The notes under the pieces: model-generated
Told to the model about the DNA's origin: nothing
Databases searched by the model: none
Seen by the model: only the letters and a program-made list of their open reading frames with translations
Assembly: GCF_002869745.1 (NCBI RefSeq)
Contig: NZ_PNOS01000011.1
Coordinates: 1-64,000, forward strand
Source of the DNA: Oceaniglobus roseus
GTDB lineage: Bacteria; Pseudomonadota; Alphaproteobacteria; Rhodobacterales; Rhodobacteraceae
DNA: 64,000 nucleotides
Reading direction: 5' to 3'
Position numbers and translations under genes: made by a program
Shown here: one piece after another, positions 3,000 to 46,823 of the stretch
Layout of the letters: every line of letters starts with the position of its first letter
How positions within the stretch are numbered: the first letter of the stretch is position 1

Positions 3000-8370
<5,371 letters not shown>

Positions 8371-8397
8371 CGGGCGCGTTCCGTTTTGTTCGCGAAT

Positions 8398-8412
8398 GTT
8401 CTCAAAAAGTTC
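8398..8412 (+). promoter_or_regulatory. LexA (SOS) box, alphaproteobacterial type
   Basis: The sequence GTTCTCAAAAAGTTC matches the alphaproteobacterial LexA operator GTTC-N7-GTTC exactly. A third GTTC lies at 8388-8391. It sits about 65 bases before the start of the 39-codon ORF at 8477 and after the recG stop, so that ORF, not recG, is the likely target. Confidence 0.8.
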
Positions 8413-8476
8413 TTTACTTTGGTGAACGGCTGTGAGAACAAAGGGGCAACGGAAACGCGGTGAGGAGGATCGCAGG

Positions 8477-8596
8477 ATGTTGCAACAGATCGTATCGGTG
8501 CTGAAGCGCTCGGAAACGCTGATGCAGGACTTTGCAGGCGCCTCCGCCCTAGCCGTGCTTCTCGTCGCCGGGCTGTACCTCCCCGGCCTTTTCTGA
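8477..8596 (+). CDS. 39-residue single-helix membrane protein, putative SOS-induced
   Basis: The ORF is ATG to TGA, 39 codons, with GAGGAGG about nine bases upstream. The product has an amphipathic N-terminal stretch (about residues 1-20, with LKRSETLMQDF) and one membrane segment (about 22-37: ASALAVLLVAGLYLPGLF). A LexA box lies upstream and a strong terminator follows at 8725-8757, so it looks like an independent SOS gene. In Caulobacter the SOS-induced 29-residue inner-membrane protein SidA inhibits division by contacting the divisome. Size, membrane segment and LexA control are similar here, but homology is not claimed. The function is an inference. Confidence 0.7.
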   Translation: MLQQIVSVLKRSETLMQDFAGASALAVLLVAGLYLPGLF

Positions 8597-8724
8597 GGTC
8601 TTTCTGCCTGCTCTCCGCTCTGCCGGTCACGCATCCCCTTTCCCCAAGCCTGGATGCACCTGACTGTCCCCAGTCGCCGGGTCGCCTGCCCGGATCGACC
8701 GGCCCTCGTTCGGATTGCCACTGA

Positions 8725-8757
8725 CGCCGCCATCTCCGGATGCGCGGCGTTTTTTTT
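8725..8757 (+). terminator. Rho-independent terminator after the small SOS gene
   Basis: A GC-rich hairpin with stem CGCCGC/GCGGCG, an inner pair CATC/GATG around a TCCG loop and one bulged C is followed by eight T residues (8750-8757). It ends the transcript of the 39-codon ORF and possibly of ligA-recG. Confidence 0.85.
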
Positions 8758-8759
8758 GC

Positions 8760-8790
8760 GGCGCCGCTTTCCGGGGGAAAGCGGGGCGCC
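8760..8790. other. Strong stem-loop beside the terminator
   Basis: A near-perfect inverted repeat: GGCGCC (8760-8765) pairs with GGCGCC (8785-8790) and GCTTTCC (8766-8772) with GGAAAGC (8776-8782) around a GGG loop. There is no T-run on the plus strand. It may block read-through or be a protein-binding site. Confidence 0.6.
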
Positions 8791-8843
8791 CGTGGCGGGG
8801 GCGGGGCGATATCGCGACCGTCGTTCCGGTTGCGAGGTCGGAT

Positions 8844-8876
8844 GCCTCCGGCGGGGATATTTGGAAAGCAAAGATG
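8844..8876 (+). repeat. Dispersed ~33 bp repeat, copy 3
   Basis: The same element as at 441-476 (GCCTCCGGCGGGGATATTT then AAAGCAAAGATG), here alone in the gap before mprF. The gap 8791-9097 otherwise shows no convincing gene; an open frame runs through it into mprF but its translation is low-complexity. Confidence 0.85.
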
Positions 8877-9097
8877 ACGGGGCGGGGGAAGGCCCGGGCG
8901 TGGTCGCGCCTCGGGCCGGGTGGGCAGGGACCCATGGCCAGCCGGTCGGGACGGCAACCGGGACAGGCTGCGGGCGTGCCGGTCCGGCGGTGGAGGGAGG
9001 TGCGGCGGTGCCGCAGGCGCGGGAAGATGGTCGGCCCGCTCGCAGGAAACGGTTTCGTCTCGCCGCGGCTTTGCTTACGCAGGGGGCGGAGGATCTC

Positions 9098-11713
9098 ATG
9101 GACGCGGAGACGGGGCAGAGGGTGCGGGCGCGGCTGAACCTGCAGGTGCTGCGGGGGGCGTTTCCCGTGCTGCTGGGGGTCGGGCTGTTCGCGCTCGGGC
9201 TCTATGCGCTCTACCACCTGCTGCGGCCGGTCGATCCGGCGGATGTCGCGGCGCAGATCCGGGCCACCCCCGTCGGTGTGCTGCTGGCGGCGCTCGGGGC
9301 CACTGTCGCGGGCTATGCGGCGCTGATCTTCTACGACTGGTTCGGGCTGCGCTTCATCAACCGGCGTCTCAGCCCCGGGGTCGTCGCGCTTGGCGGTTTC
9401 CTCGGCTATGCCTTCGGCAACACGATCGGGATCAGCGTCGTGTCGGGCGGCGCGGTGCGCTATCGCATCTATTCCGCCGCGGGGCTGAATGCGTTCGAGG
9501 TGGCGGCGGTGTCGGGATACATCGCGCTGGCGCTCGGTACCGGGCTGACGCTGGTGGGGCTCGGGGCCGTGGCGGTGCATCCCGGCCCGGCCTCGGCCTA
9601 TCTGCCCTACGGTCCCGGGACGATCCGGGCCGTGGCGGGGGCGGTGCTGGCGCTGTCGGTGGGGCTGATCCTCTACCTGTCTGTCAGCCAGCGGCAGCTG
9701 CGGGTCTGGAGCTATGACCTGCACCTACCGCCGCCCGGCGATGTCGGCGGGCAGCTGATCGTCACGCTGATCGACGTCTTCGCCGCGGCCTTCGCGCTGT
9801 GGGTCCTGCTGCCGGCGGGCAAGCCCGACTTCGCCACCTTCGTCGCGATCTATGCGGCGGCGATGATGATCGGGGTCCTGTCCCACGTGCCGGGGGGCGT
9901 CGGCGTGTTCGAGACGGTGGTGATCGGCACGCTGCCCGCCTCGGTCGCGGTCGGGGACGCGGCGGCGGCGCTGCTGCTGTTCCGGCTGATCTACTACCTT
10001 CTGCCCTTCGCCCTGGCCTTCGCCATCGTGGCGCTGAACGAGGCGCGGCTGGCGAGCGGGTTCGGCAGCCGGTTGCTGGCGCGGATGCCGGGGATGCAGG
10101 CGGCGCTTGGCACGCTGCACGGGATCGCGCCGGCGCTGGCGGCGGCGGTGGCCTTCGGCTTCGGGGTCTACCTGATGCTCGTCACCATGGTGCCCTCGGT
10201 CCGGAGCGGCGCCATCGCCGACGGCGACCTCGTGGGCTGGCTGCTGCTGGAAGGCGGCACCATCGGTTCGGCCATCGCGAGCGTGGCGCTGCTGATCGTG
10301 TCCCACGGGCTCGCGCAACGGGTGTCCTCGGCCTACTGGGTGGCGATCTTCGCGCTGGTGGGCGGCGCCGCGGGGCTGCTGCTGAACGACCTCGACATCG
10401 AAAACGCGCTGGTGCTCTGCCTCGGGGCCGTGTCGCTGTTGCCGTTCCGCCGGGCCTTCAACCGGCCCGGGCGGCTGACCGAGGGGGTGTTCGAGGCGCG
10501 CTGGTTCGCCACCGTCTTCGGCGTCGGGATCGCCACGGCGGCCTTCTTCTTCTTCGTGCACAAGGCGGTGCCCTATTCCAACGACCTGATGTCCGAGTTC
10601 TCGCGCGCCTCGACCACGCCACGGGCGCTTCGGGGCGGGCTGGCGGCGTCGGCGGTGCTGTTCTTCTTCAGCATCTACCTGCTGATCCGGCCCGTGCGGC
10701 GGACGCTGCCGGTGGATGCCGATCCGGCCACCATGGCGCGGGCGGCGGTGCTGGCGGAGGGATCGGCGGATCCCCAGAGCTGGTTGAGCCAGACCGGGGA
10801 CAAGCGGTTCCTGTTCTCCGATTCGGGGCGGGCCGTCATCATGTACGCGGTGCGCGGGGGGTCCTGGATCGCGCTCGGTGATCCGGTGGGCGATGCGGAC
10901 GAGTTCGAGGATCTGTGCTGGTCCTTCGCCGAGCAGGCGGCGGCGGCCAATGCGCGCCCCGTCTTTTACGAGGTCAGCGGGCGCAACCTGCCGCTCTGGG
11001 TGGAGCTCGGGCTGTCGCTGAACAAGATCGGCGAGGAGGCGGTGGTGCGGCTGCCGGAGTTCAGCCTGGCGGGCGGGCGGTTCAAGACCATGCGCGCGAC
11101 GCTGAACAAGCGGCAGCGCGAAGGCTACGAGATCGCGCTCCTGTCGCCGCCCCATGCGCACGGGCTGATGGAGGAGCTGAAGGCGATCTCGGACCTCTGG
11201 CTGGGGGGCAAGACGGGGCGCGAGAAGGGGTTCTCGGTGGGGCGGTTCGATCCCGTCTACCTGGGGCATTTCGACATCGCCGTCGCGCGCAAGGACGGGC
11301 GGATCGTCGCCTTCGCCAACATCATGGCCTCGTCGGGCGGGCGGTTCGTGGCGGTCGACCTGATGCGCTATCTGCCGGAGGAGGCGTCGGGGCTGATGGA
11401 GTACATGTTCCTGAGCCTGATCGAGCATTACAAGACCGCGGGGGCGGAGGAGCTGAGCCTTGGCTCGGCGCCGCTGGCGGGGCTGTCGGAGCGGTCTGTG
11501 GCGCGGTCCTGGAACAGGTTCGGGCGGCTGATCTACCGGCACGGCGGGGCGTTCTACAACTTCGCGGGGCTCAGGGCCTTCAAGCAGAAGTTCCAGCCCG
11601 AATGGCGGCCGCGCTACCTCGCGGTGCCGCCGAAGGTCTCTCCGGTCTTCGCGATGCGCGACGTGGCGCTGCTGATCGCGGGCTCTCCGCGGGGACTGGT
11701 CGGGAAGGGGTAG
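9098..11713 (+). CDS. mprF: Bifunctional phosphatidylglycerol lysyltransferase/flippase MprF
   Basis: An 871-residue inner-membrane protein. The N-terminal two thirds (about 1-520) carry over ten hydrophobic segments and the MprF flippase fold, including GGFLGYAFGNTIGISVVSGG and the SHVPGGVGVFE motif. The C-terminal DUF2156/GNAT-like domain (about 540-850) transfers an amino acid from aminoacyl-tRNA to phosphatidylglycerol, with typical phrases such as GDPVGDADEFEDLCW and the late SLGSAPLAGL. It lowers surface charge and protects against cationic peptides. GGAGG six bases before the ATG supports this start over a much longer upstream frame. It is apparently a single-gene unit. Confidence 0.93.
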   Translation: MDAETGQRVRARLNLQVLRGAFPVLLGVGLFALGLYALYHLLRPVDPADVAAQIRATPVGVLLAALGATVAGYAALIFYDWFGLRFINRRLSPGVVALGGFLGYAFGNTIGISVVSGGAVRYRIYSAAGLNAFEVAAVSGYIALALGTGLTLVGLGAVAVHPGPASAYLPYGPGTIRAVAGAVLALSVGLILYLSVSQRQLRVWSYDLHLPPPGDVGGQLIVTLIDVFAAAFALWVLLPAGKPDFATFVAIYAAAMMIGVLSHVPGGVGVFETVVIGTLPASVAVGDAAAALLLFRLIYYLLPFALAFAIVALNEARLASGFGSRLLARMPGMQAALGTLHGIAPALAAAVAFGFGVYLMLVTMVPSVRSGAIADGDLVGWLLLEGGTIGSAIASVALLIVSHGLAQRVSSAYWVAIFALVGGAAGLLLNDLDIENALVLCLGAVSLLPFRRAFNRPGRLTEGVFEARWFATVFGVGIATAAFFFFVHKAVPYSNDLMSEFSRASTTPRALRGGLAASAVLFFFSIYLLIRPVRRTLPVDADPATMARAAVLAEGSADPQSWLSQTGDKRFLFSDSGRAVIMYAVRGGSWIALGDPVGDADEFEDLCWSFAEQAAAANARPVFYEVSGRNLPLWVELGLSLNKIGEEAVVRLPEFSLAGGRFKTMRATLNKRQREGYEIALLSPPHAHGLMEELKAISDLWLGGKTGREKGFSVGRFDPVYLGHFDIAVARKDGRIVAFANIMASSGGRFVAVDLMRYLPEEASGLMEYMFLSLIEHYKTAGAEELSLGSAPLAGLSERSVARSWNRFGRLIYRHGGAFYNFAGLRAFKQKFQPEWRPRYLAVPPKVSPVFAMRDVALLIAGSPRGLVGKG

Positions 11714-41987: not shown

Positions 41988-44603
41988 TCATGCCACCGGC
42001 TCCACCGATTCCCGCGCGGCGAGGCGCAGCGTCTGTCCGCCGAGCTCGCGGAAGGCGCGCTGGCGGCAGGTGAAGACGATGATCTGGAGATCGCCGGCCT
42101 GCCGGTGGAGGGCGTCGAACATGCGCTCGATGCGGTCGTCGTCGGTGAAGACCAGCGCGTCGTCGAGCAGGACAGGTGCGTGGCGGCCGTCCTTCGCCAG
42201 CATCCGCGCGAAGGCGAGGCGCACGAGCAGCGCGACCTGTTCCTGCGTACCGCCCGAAAGGATGTCGATCGGCTCGGCCTGGCCGTTGCGGGTCAGCGCC
42301 TCGGGCAGGAGGGTGTCCTGGGTCCAGGTCAGTTCGGCATCCGGCCAGAGAAGTTGCAGCAGCGGCTTCAGCTCGGCCGCGACCGGCGCGAAGTAGCGTT
42401 CGCGCGCCTCGGTGCGGGCGTGGGTCAGAGCGGCTTCGAGACGGCGCAGAACGGCGACCTCGTGGGCGTAACGGGCGAGCTCCGCCTCTGCGGCCGCCAG
42501 TTCCTGCTCGCACTCCGCCAACCGTTCCTCGACCGCCTCGCCCGAACCGCGGGCGATGCGTTCGTCCAGCGTCGCGATCTCGGGGCGCAGACGGGCGATG
42601 TCGGCGCGGGCCGCCTCGTCCACCGACCGCGCGCGCCGCAGGGTGGCTTCGGCGGCGGCCAGGTCGGGGGCGGCGCGCAGCTTCTCTGCGTGGATGGCCT
42701 CTGCCGCCTCGAGTTCCTGGACGGCCTGCCTCATGGCCGCGTCGAGCGCCGCGACCGTGGCATCGCCGAGCGCGGCGAGGGCGGTTTCTGCACGGCCCAG
42801 GCGCTCGCGGGCCCCGCACTCCGCCGCGTCGGTGCGGGCCAGCGCCTCGCGCGCCTTTGCCATCGCTTCGGCTGCACTGGCCTGGGTCGACTGGGCGGCG
42901 GTCATTGCCGACCCGGCCGCGCCGAGGCTCGCCTCGGTGGCGGCCGGGTCGAGCGGTTCGGCGTCCTCCTCGGCCTCCGGGATGCGCGCCAGCACTTCGC
43001 GAAGCTTCTCTATGCCCGCGGGCGCCAGCGCCTCGAACCGCGCCTGCGCCTCGCGCGCCTGTGCCGCCGCACGGGTTCGGGCCTCGGCGGCGGTCCGGGC
43101 GGCGGCCAGGTCGGGAAGGCCCAGCCTGTCCAGCTCTTTCGCCAGCGCCTGCTCGGCCCGCTCGACGGCGTCGTCGTCCTGGGCCCCGGCGCCGGGGCGG
43201 ATCTCGATCTCGCCGAGCCCGTCGATCGCCAGCCGCGCGCCGCGCGGGATGGGGTAGGGGGTTCCGCCATCCAAGGCGGCTCCGTCGAGCATCACCGCCC
43301 CGTCGCGTCCTGCCGCGTAGGTGACGACAAGCTGCGTCGCCATCGCGTCGCGGGTCGCCCGCGCCGTGGCGAGGGCCATCGACAGGGTCTCCAGCCTGCG
43401 CAGCGCCGCCTGGTCGGGGCCGGTGCGTGCAGCTGCCTCGGCTTCCTCCCTCAGCTTGCGCGCGGCCTCGGCCTCGGCGATGCTCTGGACCAGCTCGGCG
43501 CGGCGCTGCGCGCCCTCCCGGGCGGCCTGCTGGCGCCCGGCCCTGCGGTGGTTTTCCTCCGCCTGTCTCAGTGCGGCCTTCGCCTGGTCCAGCGTCGTCT
43601 CGGCGGCGGTGAGGGCGGTGCGGGCCGCGGCATGGTCCGCCTGCGCGGCGGCTTTCGCGGCGGCGGCGCCGGTCGCGAGCCCGGCTGCTTCGTCGCGTTC
43701 GGCGAGCGCGACGCGCAGGGCTTCCAGCCGGGACTGCGCCGCGGTGACGGCCATGCGGGCGGTGGTCACCTTGCGCGCTTCGACCTCGACGCTCTCGGCA
43801 TGGCGCTCGGCCATGGTGTGGGCCTTGGTCGCATCGTCGAGACGCTTCTTCCGCGCGGTCACAGCGTCCGGTGCCTCGATCTCGGCCAGTTCGCGCCGCT
43901 TGCGCTTGCGCCGGTCCAGCGCGTCGTGCAGCGCCGCCGCCGTGGTCGAAAGCTCCGCCCGGCGCAGGCGCAGCGCCTCGACCCGGTCCGACGCCGCCTT
44001 CCACGGCCCGCCCGTCTTCTCGCGCCCCGTCGCGGTGGCAAGCACCGACAGCTCTTCGCGGCAGCGCGCCAGGGCCATGTCCATGCGCCGGCCGCCGGTC
44101 ATCGCCTCGACCTCTTCCGAGACCGAGGACATCAGGTCGCGCCGGGCCTCCAGCGCCGCCGCCTGCTCCCGGTTCGAGCCGCCGGTGAGGCCGGTCATGC
44201 CCTGGCGCACCCAGACCAGCCCCGAGGGGCCACCCGAGGTGCCGCCGACCAGCCGGGCGATCCAGGCCTCGGCCTCGTCGGCCTGGGCGACCAGGCGGCC
44301 GGCCTGGCGGACCGTCGCCGCGGGGCGCGAGGTCCAGCGCTTGGCGATGGTGAAGGTGCCGGCATCGGTCTCGACCTCGACCGTCACCTCGGGCGCGCCG
44401 CCGGCATGGGGCTTCAGCGCCTTGATCTCCTTGTCGTTGGCGCCGTGGGCCTTGAAGAACAGCGCCTGGACGGCGTCGAACAGGGTCGACTTGCCATGCT
44501 CGTTCGGCTCGCAGAGGACGTTCAGCCCGTCGCCGATGCCGGTGAGGCCCGTCGGCGCGGTGAAGCGGCGGACGTTGTTCAGGGTGATGGCGCGGAGCTT
44601 CAT
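41988..44603 (-). CDS. SMC/SbcC-like AAA ATPase (YhaN type)
   Basis: 871 residues with the ABC-ATPase head split by a long coiled coil. Walker A is EPNEHGKST (about 33-41); the middle 180-700 is Ala/Glu/Arg-rich heptad sequence; the C-terminal head has the signature ILSGGTQEQVALLVRLAF and Walker B HAPVLLDDALVF. I see no CxxC zinc hook, unlike Rad50/SbcC. Its ATG overlaps the stop of the nuclease gene (ATGA), so both are made together and probably form an SbcCD/Mre11-Rad50-like complex acting on DNA ends. Confidence 0.85.
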   Translation of the reverse strand: MKLRAITLNNVRRFTAPTGLTGIGDGLNVLCEPNEHGKSTLFDAVQALFFKAHGANDKEIKALKPHAGGAPEVTVEVETDAGTFTIAKRWTSRPAATVRQAGRLVAQADEAEAWIARLVGGTSGGPSGLVWVRQGMTGLTGGSNREQAAALEARRDLMSSVSEEVEAMTGGRRMDMALARCREELSVLATATGREKTGGPWKAASDRVEALRLRRAELSTTAAALHDALDRRKRKRRELAEIEAPDAVTARKKRLDDATKAHTMAERHAESVEVEARKVTTARMAVTAAQSRLEALRVALAERDEAAGLATGAAAAKAAAQADHAAARTALTAAETTLDQAKAALRQAEENHRRAGRQQAAREGAQRRAELVQSIAEAEAARKLREEAEAAARTGPDQAALRRLETLSMALATARATRDAMATQLVVTYAAGRDGAVMLDGAALDGGTPYPIPRGARLAIDGLGEIEIRPGAGAQDDDAVERAEQALAKELDRLGLPDLAAARTAAEARTRAAAQAREAQARFEALAPAGIEKLREVLARIPEAEEDAEPLDPAATEASLGAAGSAMTAAQSTQASAAEAMAKAREALARTDAAECGARERLGRAETALAALGDATVAALDAAMRQAVQELEAAEAIHAEKLRAAPDLAAAEATLRRARSVDEAARADIARLRPEIATLDERIARGSGEAVEERLAECEQELAAAEAELARYAHEVAVLRRLEAALTHARTEARERYFAPVAAELKPLLQLLWPDAELTWTQDTLLPEALTRNGQAEPIDILSGGTQEQVALLVRLAFARMLAKDGRHAPVLLDDALVFTDDDRIERMFDALHRQAGDLQIIVFTCRQRAFRELGGQTLRLAARESVEPVA

Positions 44604-45730
44604 TGACGGGCCTCCTTCACATAGGCGTAGAGCCGGGCGAGCGCGTCGGCCGCCACCTCGCGGTCCTCGCGCGACAGGGTCTCGCCCCCGGCTTCGGTCA
44701 TCAGCGCGTCGGCGGCGAGCCGCAGGGCACCGCCGCGGTCGATCTCGTCGAGATCGGCCAGTTCGTACTGTGTCTGGAGCGCGCCCGTCCGCAACTCGAA
44801 GTGCGCGAACTCGGGGCCGATGCGGTCGGCCGCGCGTTTCAGTTCGGCCTGTTCGGGCAGGCCCGCCCAACCCGTCGCGTTGACCCGCACCAGCCGGTCC
44901 CGGCGGGCCTCGGCCGGCAGCAGGTCCAGCAGCGCCGCGGCGGCGTCCTGGCGGGGCGTGAGCGGCAGGTCGAGGTCCTGCCAGAGGAAGCTGCCCGTCT
45001 CGATCTCCTCGACCCGGGGCGCGGCGCCGAGGCCGTCGATGCCGACCGCAAGGCAGACGCCGCGCCGACCATGCTTGAAGCGATCCTGTTCCGGGCTGCC
45101 CGGGTAGTGCACCCGTGGCCCGATCTGCATCCGGCCGTGCCAGTCGCCGAGCGCCAGGTAGTCGAGCCGCGCCGACCGGTCGCGATCCGGCGGGACGTTG
45201 GCGCCCTCGTCCGTGAAGTCCGTCACCGCGCCATGGGCCAGCCCGATGCGCAGCGTTCCCTCGTCCGAGGGCATCGTCACCAGCGCCTCGGTGGCGTCGG
45301 CGCCGGAGGAGCGCCATTCGACGGGGCAGGGCAGGAGGGTCGCCTCGGGCGAGAGGCTCACCGGCTCGGGCGCGGTGAGGCAGCGGACGTTGCCCGGCGC
45401 CTCGCGCGCGATCATGTCCCAGAGCGGCTCGGCCTCGCGCAGGTTGTCGTGGTTGCCGGGCAGCAGCCACCAGCGCAGGCCGGAATCCTCGGCCATCGCC
45501 GCGATCGCCTGGCGCACGACGGGCAGCGAGGGCGTCGGGGTGTCGAAGGTGTCCCCCGCGACCAGGATGTCGGCCGCGCCCTGGGCGCGCGCGGCGGCGG
45601 CGATCCGGGCGATGGCACCGTGGCGGGCTTCGCGCAGCCGGCCGCGGATGCTGCCATCCGGCGGCTCGGGGATGTTGGCGAACTTGGTGCCGAGGTGCAG
45701 GTCGGAGGTGTGGATGAAACGGAAGGTCAT
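44600..45730 (-). CDS. SbcD/Mre11-like metallophosphoesterase (YhaO type)
   Basis: A 376-residue calcineurin-like phosphoesterase. Metal motifs are FIHTSDLHLG (about 5-14), VAGDTFDTP, LLPGNHDNL and LAHGAV with LALGDWHGRM. The C-terminal part (about 260-376) is the capping region. It is the nuclease partner of the SMC-like ATPase. The upstream WYL gene is in the same direction with a 142-base gap that shows no other gene. Confidence 0.88.
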   Translation of the reverse strand: MTFRFIHTSDLHLGTKFANIPEPPDGSIRGRLREARHGAIARIAAAARAQGAADILVAGDTFDTPTPSLPVVRQAIAAMAEDSGLRWWLLPGNHDNLREAEPLWDMIAREAPGNVRCLTAPEPVSLSPEATLLPCPVEWRSSGADATEALVTMPSDEGTLRIGLAHGAVTDFTDEGANVPPDRDRSARLDYLALGDWHGRMQIGPRVHYPGSPEQDRFKHGRRGVCLAVGIDGLGAAPRVEEIETGSFLWQDLDLPLTPRQDAAAALLDLLPAEARRDRLVRVNATGWAGLPEQAELKRAADRIGPEFAHFELRTGALQTQYELADLDEIDRGGALRLAADALMTEAGGETLSREDREVAADALARLYAYVKEARQ

Positions 45731-45872
45731 GGATTACTCCTGAACGGCAAGCAGGGCCGGCGGGCGGGCCGGATGTATCGAGCCTTGAGGGACGGGCACG
45801 ACAGATGCTGTCGTGCAGGGGGCAGACCTGACCGGCTTTGCAGTTGATCTCCGTGAACGCATGCGGAACATC

Positions 45873-46823
45873 TCAGGGCAGAACGTCCCCGTTGCGCTGC
45901 GGATCGGCGAGCAGCCTGCGCAGACCTTCGGGAGACACCACCTCGACCGAATCGCCCCAGCTCAGAAGGTGCCAGGCCATCTCGAGCCAGCCCGAGGCGG
46001 TGAATCGCACCTCCAGCCGCCCGTCCGCAAGGGGCCGGCTGCTCTGCGTCGGGTGAAACCGCCACTCTGCGGCACGGTCCGCCGCCTGCTGCGAGAACCG
46101 CAGCACGACCTCGCCGTATTCCTCCTCGGCCTGGTACGAGCCAAAGGCGCGCGCCGCATGTTCGGACAGGCTGAAGCCCGGGTCGCGGGCGAAGGGCGTC
46201 CGCGTCGGCAGGACATCGGTCATCCTGTCCAGCCGGAAATGGCGCAGCACCGTGCCGTCGTCCGTCTGCTTCGCGACGAGGTAGCGACGCGCGCCGATCA
46301 GGATGCCATAGGGCTCCACCTCGCGCGCCTTCCCGGAATAGGAGAAGCGCAGCAGCCAAGGCCCCTTCAGCGCCTGCGCCACGGCGTCCGCCGTGCCCGG
46401 GTCGATCTGGACGAAGGGCCCGGGCCGCGCTGCGACCCCGTGCGCCTCGAGCATCGCGTCGGCATCGGCCTCGGCCGCCCGCGCCGCGGTCGGGGGAAGC
46501 GCCGCCAGAAGCCGGTCGCGCAGGCTGGAGAGCGCATCGGCCTCGCGCCGGTCGCCCTGCGCCTCGAGCGCAGCGATGCCGCCCTCCAGCGCCTCCAGCT
46601 CCTCGGCCCCCCGCAGGCGCATCCGCGCGACCGGCATCTCCTTCAGTCGCCACCGTCTCTTGCGGTCTGCACCGTCGTGGACCTCGACCGCGTGGGGAAA
46701 GATCTGGACGAGCGCGCGGACCATGCGTTGAGCGGTGCGTTCATGGACATGGAATTCCCCCGCGATTTCCTCGAGGGAGACGCCGGAATAGCGGGAGGCC
46801 GCCAGATCCGCGAGACGCAGCAA
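45873..46823 (-). CDS. WYL-domain transcriptional regulator
   Basis: At least 316 residues. An N-terminal winged helix (about 18-42: LEEIAGEFHVHERTAQRMV) is followed by a WYL domain (about 150-230, with LLRFSYSGKAREVEPYGIL and LVAKQ) and a WCX-like C-terminal part (DGRLEVRFTASGWLEMAWHL). The only standard start before the nearest upstream stop is the TTG at 46823, but it lacks a ribosome site; see the finding on its start. WYL regulators often control DNA-damage or defence genes, which fits the SbcCD-like pair downstream. Confidence 0.85.
   Translation of the reverse strand: MLRLADLAASRYSGVSLEEIAGEFHVHERTAQRMVRALVQIFPHAVEVHDGADRKRRWRLKEMPVARMRLRGAEELEALEGGIAALEAQGDRREADALSSLRDRLLAALPPTAARAAEADADAMLEAHGVAARPGPFVQIDPGTADAVAQALKGPWLLRFSYSGKAREVEPYGILIGARRYLVAKQTDDGTVLRHFRLDRMTDVLPTRTPFARDPGFSLSEHAARAFGSYQAEEEYGEVVLRFSQQAADRAAEWRFHPTQSSRPLADGRLEVRFTASGWLEMAWHLLSWGDSVEVVSPEGLRRLLADPQRNGDVLP

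Follow-up and report, generated by a model that had tools for sequence, protein, structure and literature searches.

Comparative sequence analysis of a LexA-boxed gene behind recG in Rhodobacteraceae predicts a membrane peptide and a structured RNA on one transcript

The locus studied here is a tiny unannotated gene just 3' of recG in Oceaniglobus roseus, located in a 64,000-nt stretch of contig NZ_PNOS01000011.1 that was analysed as a whole (hereafter, the window). recG itself spans 6280-8370 on the forward strand (NCBIfam NF008164 RecG, 1101 bits) and is the gene directly upstream of a 39-codon open reading frame (ORF) that begins with ATG and occupies 8477-8596 on the same strand (MLQQIVSVLKRSETLMQDFAGASALAVLLVAGLYLPGLF). 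A ribosome-binding site, GAGGAGGA, lies ahead of the frame at 8462-8469 (+), and a perfect GTTC-N7-GTTC LexA box, GTTCTCAAAAAGTTC, is found at 8398-8412 (+); frame, ribosome site and box had all been claimed by a first-pass annotation of this DNA, and all are present. The frame is followed by a 3' UTR (8597-8757, +) that holds a conserved structured RNA and an intrinsic terminator, and from promoter and terminator we infer a single transcription unit of ~310 nt. Across 150 distinct orthologous loci (163 minus 13 duplicates, the weak and non-homologous matches L025, L026 and L030 having been left out before the count), a co-oriented recG precedes the ORF in 147, with 76-620 nt between the two, and the sequence of the remaining three covers only 400 nt upstream.

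When the single peptide sequence was used as query, 31 of 61 relatives gave a match at E <= 1, and a profile built from 27 peptides (A1) matched 261 of 296 family genomes, almost all of different genera, with two matches each in five of them and one in the rest. Of 387 genomes in a class-wide sample, 27 were matched by the profile at E <= 0.1. Six of these are family genomes, with E <= 2.7e-12; the other 21 all have E >= 5e-4 and owe their matches mostly to pieces of longer frames. Five named loci carry the peptide by profile; they include Rhodobaculum claviforme and MAGs labelled Rhodobacteraceae, Paracoccus and Albidovulum. We also inspected the region behind recG in 21 profile-negative family genomes (20 of the 35 profile misses, and G013), which yielded a RecG-tail match in 17, a true recG in 16 and no match in four. 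An exact LexA box is present in eleven of these 16 recG loci, and in each of those eleven a small hydrophobic ORF is visible by eye, ten of these ORFs being diverged relatives (e.g., those at L224 and L222); at L221, L226, L229, L230 and L231 neither box nor small hydrophobic ORF was seen behind recG. L234, from a distant AT-rich family member, keeps behind recG a GAAC-N7-GAAC box as well as a hydrophobic ORF of 36 residues, which has no visible sequence similarity to the family peptide.

Outside the family, where 89 of 115 recG genomes were examined, a box occurred within 300 nt after recG in 1 of 88 genomes and a box together with a membrane ORF in 0 of 88; the sole box precedes an unrelated larger ORF, and a chance box behind recG was rejected as an explanation. 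An origin in phages or plasmids was likewise rejected: the composite promoter described below is absent from viral contigs, the 27 members of A1 matched 0 families in PHROGs and Pfam, and the consensus peptide had no match in plasmids at E <= 0.01. The window peptide itself had no family match in Pfam or NCBIfam, and among solved structures (PDB) there was no match either. The first-pass annotation had named lack of conservation of the ORF or box in relatives as a finding that would overturn its proposal; both are conserved, and this family-wide conservation strongly supports an unannotated small membrane protein after recG.

The orthologous frames bear the marks of a coding sequence. ATG is the start codon in 149 of the 150 loci, and a G-rich information peak lies at -12 to -9, consistent with the ribosome-binding site. 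The analysis of codons and residues was made on 124 distinct 40-residue orthologues, a set outside which the 39-residue window copy falls. In these, the entropy at the three codon positions is 1.19, 0.74 and 1.57, pN is lower than pS in 7572 of 7626 pairs, and the median dN/dS is 0.54 (2465 pairs with pS of 0.1-0.6). By these codon statistics, the ORF is a real protein under purifying selection.

We turn to the promoter, where counts of the box pattern alone say little: GTTC-N7-GTTC occurs twice in the window (1.46 expected) and 116 times in the 4.41-Mb genome (30 for a reversed control). Rarity was therefore rejected as a measure of significance; the box is significant because it is conserved before the orthologues, with GTTC-N7-GTTC present within 140 nt of the ORF in 148 of the 150 loci (0.1 after base shuffling), the exceptions being L002 and L145. 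The N8 variant precedes the ORF in 2 of the 150 loci, and the reversed control in 0. An extra upstream half-site (8388-8401, +) forms GTTC-N6-GTTC with box 1, the second GTTC being common to both, and 131 of the 150 loci have the full GTTC-N6-GTTC-N7-GTTC array, which occurs in none after shuffling. Abutting box 1 is the hexamer TTTACT (8413-8418, +; columns 15-20 of the promoter map), mostly TTTACA in relatives, which we read as a putative -35 element; a consensus scan reported no sigma-70-like promoter at the locus. Further downstream, at 8436-8450 on the minus strand, lies an imperfect LexA-like box 2, GAAC-N7-CAAC, in the reverse orientation as in recA and lexA promoters. The first-pass annotation, correct about box 1, had missed this second site, which in the form GAAC-N7-NAAC is present in 149 of 150 loci (1.55 after shuffling). 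The geometry is fixed, with GAAC 38 nt after the start of the box in 135 of 148 loci, and the composite pattern is found in 146 of 150 loci (0 after shuffling), once per genome in 17 of 25 family genomes, and 0 times both in 16 other genomes and in the reversed control.

A LexA matrix, built from 36 recA and lexA sites alone, ranked 8395-8415 best of all 21-mers of the window on both strands (18.8 bits; next, 12.2). Box 2 is the third-best site of the window at 9.5 bits, the lowest training site scoring 14.4. That lowest training score is reached in 143 of the 150 loci and in 0 of 147 control windows from recG coding sequence; sites in the reverse orientation, as in box 2, reach it in 110 of 150 loci. 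It could be argued that a different regulator binds the conserved promoter and that the locus lies outside the SOS response, all the more since GTTC-N7-GTTC by itself is frequent in the genome. Against this, the same half-sites with the same spacing (GAAC-N7-GAAC) stand in the recA promoter of 17 of 18 parsed family genomes (a 19th was unparsed) and in the lexA promoter of 13 of 13, and the matrix derived from precisely these sites puts box 1 first in the window, which renders a non-LexA regulator highly improbable. Family-wide conservation of the box and the matrix ranking thus strongly support the proposed LexA control, and judging from these sequence features we consider it very probable that LexA binds the locus and that DNA damage induces it. 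The placement of half-sites on either side of the core promoter suggests that repression is tight, as one would expect where a product has to be kept off. As an observation on the lexA gene of the window genome itself (L253), its promoter has two overlapping GAAC-N7-GAAC boxes with three half-sites, and such an overlapping pair is seen in 6 of the 13 family lexA promoters.

A study of Dinoroseobacter LexA reports sites at recA, lexA, dprA and others, its main text containing no occurrence of recG or sidA (PMC6473078). For some Alphaproteobacteria, a multi-chromosome SOS study predicts that recG is itself under LexA (PMC3323433); such a site is different from the box behind recG described here.

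The AlphaFold2 model of the peptide has two helices, at residues 2-11 and 13-38 (mean pLDDT 86, pTM 0.45), and the codons of the predicted transmembrane helix (residues 19-36) map to 8531-8584 (+). The model fits the single membrane helix claimed at the outset, and the peptide almost certainly inserts into the membrane. In alignment numbering, the most conserved residues of the 124 sequences are D19 (123), G22 (124), L34 (124) and P37 (121), followed by L26 and L30 (117 each) and T15 (114); Lys6 is kept in 103 (Val in the window copy) and Arg11 in 99. One face of the helix is more conserved than the rest (P = 0.009 over positions 19-37; 0.054 over 20-36), and for the N-terminal part amphipathicity is of borderline significance (P = 0.058). 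Positions 19-37 have a mean net charge of -1.0, i.e., the charge of Asp19.

These features bear on what the peptide may do. One possibility is a depolarising type I toxin, like TisB or DinQ, that makes damaged cells dormant: a very short membrane peptide behind several LexA half-sites fits a product that must stay off, and TisB and DinQ of E. coli are themselves LexA-controlled inner-membrane peptides of 29 and 27 residues (PMC8309996). Those systems, however, include an RNA antitoxin (IstR-1 and AgrB, respectively) and, for tisB, an inhibitory leader, whereas here the stretch from box 2 to the frame is short and, apart from the ribosome-binding site, unconserved, and it shows no sign of an antisense site or an inhibitory leader. 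TisB also carries a charged strip along its helix, whereas positions 19-37 here carry on average the Asp19 charge only, and the family-wide conservation of sequence, stronger on one helix face, better suits a protein partner. We regard a toxin as unlikely.

A conserved helix face that suggests a partner is equally what one would look for in an SOS-induced regulator of some other membrane protein, e.g., a protease, a transporter or a respiratory complex, with no part in division. Small membrane proteins often tune enzymes. On the other hand, division inhibition is an established role of small SOS-induced membrane proteins (SidA, YneA, SosA), and no other SOS division inhibitor of Rhodobacteraceae was found among the matches listed in the open-access literature; we hold such a regulator to be rather improbable, if less so than a toxin. 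The closest model for a role in division is SidA of Caulobacter crescentus, likewise a very short, LexA-controlled inner-membrane protein of an alphaproteobacterium (the corresponding properties being predictions at our locus), which blocks division through FtsW/I/N (PMC4211646) and accounts for the filamentation of a Caulobacter lexA deletion (PMC12700426). The likeness considered here is one of build and predicted control; SidA has 29 residues, whereas the peptide here has ~40, is encoded after recG and is carried by an mRNA with a conserved structured RNA. By this analogy, delaying division may well be the peptide's job, and a SidA-like brake is plausible, at slightly under even odds.

The transcript does not end with the peptide. 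The first-pass annotation had given the ORF its own terminator, and folding supports one at 8723-8757 (+), with a 12-bp stem and a run of eight T (folding z -4.5), although a simple scanner reported none at the locus; it sits 126 nt past the stop codon, and the structured RNA between the two, in the same transcription unit, had been overlooked. Among the 58 loci with at least 300 nt of downstream sequence, 56 have a terminator-like stem and T5 within 400 nt after the stop; in 47 of those 56, 133-205 nt separate the stop from the T-run. The stretch between stop and terminator is C-rich (C exceeds G in 140 of 147). In the 53 of the 58 loci whose terminator T-run lies 80-260 nt after the stop, and which supplied the UTR sequences, CTGTCCC occurs in 44 and CTGCCTG in 39, as compared to ~2 after shuffling.

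The conserved structured RNA spans 8602-8724 (+), as delimited by a match of the covariance model R2 and supported by covariation and by the RNA's own fold. In that fold, closing stems pair 8614-8617 with 8711-8714 and 8622-8628 with 8697-8703, and enclose hairpins at 8631-8657, 8661-8676 and 8677-8693 (all +). Individual folds of the UTRs have a closing stem and hairpins in common, giving a shared architecture of closing stem, hairpins with CUGYC-rich loops, and terminator. A pairing test that uses no fitted alignment, made on 47 of the 53 RNAs, gave a summed energy of -1354.8 kcal/mol for closing arms paired with their own partners, the best of 5000 permutations reaching -1124.0; at the level of single RNAs, own-arm pairing outdid all cross pairings in only 3 of the 47, and 95% of the cross pairings in 17. 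The folding energy of the core has a mean z of -2.62, with 32 of 47 below -2, versus a mean of -0.48 and 6 of 47 in control windows downstream.

Aligned directly with MAFFT, the full set of 53 UTRs showed no consensus beyond the terminator, and the covariance model was for this reason started from seven closely alike sequences. Seed and structure of this first model (R1) were hand-picked, and covariance-model alignments lean toward that structure; on the R1 seed alone, the consensus fold has 30 predicted pairs, of which only 6 show compensatory changes. Alignments A2 to A5 were tried as seeds and dropped. Run against 75 loci, R1 produced 43 matches at E <= 1, of which only two fell away from the expected place, and, untrained on the window locus, it found this locus only at E = 0.51. 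In the training alignment A8 (37 rows, including the probably spurious but retained row L004:1821-1934, which lies on the opposite strand inside recG), both partners have changed in 26 of the 28 modelled base pairs, and pairing holds in 90.6% of cells, compared to 70.0% on shuffling (0 of 500 as high) and 31-47% with slid partners. Since covariance-model alignments are fitted to a structure, the slid and permutation controls weigh more. As judged from these alignments, base-pair covariation explains the conservation of the UTR, and we prefer it to a second coding ORF there.

The rebuilt model, R2, has a single match up to E = 1 in the window, at 8602-8724, the same sequence (L001) being in its training set. 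Across the 58 peptide loci it places the RNA correctly in 48 at E <= 0.1, 12 of them outside the training set, and gives no match in place in 10. Scanned with strict filters, 64 of 150 family genomes have the RNA, always once (44 outside the training set, tallied by locus origin), and 86 gave nothing. Wherever both positions were listed (50 of 50 genomes), the RNA follows the peptide in the same orientation at a distance of 3-71 nt; for 14 of the 64 genomes the peptide coordinate was not among the matches listed. In a class sample, R2 matched 3 of 143 genomes, all three members of the family. With filters off, the diverged loci L224, L227, L222 and L225 have a match in place (E of 6e-5 to 0.03), and L220, L233 and L228 weak ones (E of 0.12 to 1.3, off-place matches starting at E = 0.085); in the five recG loci without the ORF, R2 finds nothing or fragments at E > 1. 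Rfam 15 had no match up to E = 1 in 8200-9300 of the window, and none in the 3' UTRs of eight loci. Separately, the Rfam model Ysr141 (Yersinia sRNA 141) gave weak matches in six of eight recG loci (E of 2.8e-6 to 0.76), far below its gathering score, e.g., L004:2751-2987; those in L004 and L001 are on the strand opposite recG, and this model may contain recG-derived sequence.

The loops of the RNA carry a distinct signature. CTG[CT]C occurs 3.81 times per RNA, versus 0.92 after shuffling, and 75% of its bases are unpaired, versus 36% of other non-A bases. The control motif GTC[CT]G occurs 0.47 times, versus 0.40; C[CT]GTC (1.72 versus 0.56) overlaps CTG[CT]C itself and is not valid as a control. 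A simpler reading of the folded 3' region is that it acts only in cis, protecting the mRNA against decay or adjusting translation of the peptide, which would then be the sole effector. The joint occurrence of RNA and peptide in all genomes with both positions listed speaks for it, as does the absence of the RNA from the five recG loci that lack the ORF; moreover, pairing between the ribosome-binding region and the RNA core has a slight species specificity, equalled in 14 of 2000 permutations. Yet pairing of the ribosome-binding region with the leader segment of the RNA has no species specificity (1462 of 2000 equally good), and the conservation of specific unpaired CUGYC loops, 3-4 per RNA, goes beyond the needs of a stability element. 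We consider a purely cis-acting region possible, though clearly short of even odds, and action of the RNA in trans about as probable as its opposite.

Taken together, comparative sequence analysis establishes the conservation of promoter, boxes, frame, RNA fold and terminator, as well as their joint occurrence. A small ORF, a conserved RNA segment and a terminator in one predicted transcription unit are the elements by which dual-function RNAs are recognised. The reading we prefer, to which we assign a probability of roughly 0.5, is that of a LexA-repressed dual-output transcript yielding a peptide and a trans-acting RNA. DNA damage would lift LexA repression and release the ~310-nt transcript with its two products. 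The first would be a 40-residue inner-membrane peptide with a short N-terminal helix, whose Lys6 and Arg11 probably lie on the cytoplasmic side, and then one membrane helix with a conserved face of D19, G22, L26, L30, G33 and P37; it would most likely bind a divisome or envelope membrane partner and delay division until the DNA is repaired. The second would be the 3' multi-hairpin RNA, presenting repeated CUGYC loops and most likely regulatory in trans, either pairing with mRNAs or holding an RNA-binding protein. In its most specific form, which we advance tentatively, this is a family-wide SOS dual-function RNA whose peptide stops division and whose CUGYC loops silence cell-cycle or metabolic mRNAs, or titrate an RNA-binding protein.

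Several known systems resemble the proposed dual-output transcript in part. VcdRP and SgrST similarly open with a small ORF that is followed, on one transcript, by a conserved RNA segment, and in VcdRP a Rho-independent terminator closes the series (PMC8672173); however, theirs is carbon or sugar control, whereas our locus has LexA boxes, a membrane peptide and a multi-hairpin RNA with several CUGYC loops. Pos19 of Rhodobacter sphaeroides, from the same bacterial family, is a stress-induced small coding RNA of 219 nt with a translated small ORF, but it is under RpoE control, and no copy was found outside R. sphaeroides (PMC5036791), unlike the LexA-boxed, family-wide locus. EcpR1 of Sinorhizobium is an alphaproteobacterial stress RNA with a conserved loop, whose overproduction elongates cells (PMC4414408); it differs in being a trans-sRNA of the stringent response, from Rhizobiales, with two hairpins and another loop sequence.

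No published account of this locus or of a LexA-controlled dual-function RNA, and none of a Rhodobacteraceae protein that stops division after DNA damage, was among the matches listed in the open-access literature. The peptide gene is a nearly always single-copy candidate division inhibitor, absent from the family libraries scanned. To us, the structured RNA in the transcription unit of an SOS peptide is a larger surprise than the peptide; it would extend the SOS response by a structured RNA, and a single damage signal might yield both regulators together.

Two other regions of the window merit mention. The second-best LexA-matrix site (45855-45869, minus strand) scores 12.2 bits, less than any training site; a WYL-WCX regulator immediately precedes it, and ~125 nt after it come a calcineurin-like (SbcD-like) nuclease and an SbcC/SMC-like ATPase, the ORFs near the site being 41988-45470, 44600-45730 and 45873-46823 (all minus). 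Because DriD, an SOS-independent damage regulator of Caulobacter, is an HTH-WYL protein (PMC4211646), this region may by analogy be a second damage-response locus. Finally, ligA (3773-6283) contains a patch of ~43% GC at 5300-6050 inside a gene of 70% GC; in its match to the NCBIfam LigA model, the protein covers ~100 residues beyond the length of the model itself, and a long Pfam-free stretch lies between the zinc finger and the helix-hairpin-helix domain, suggesting that 5300-6050 is an imported or inserted segment.
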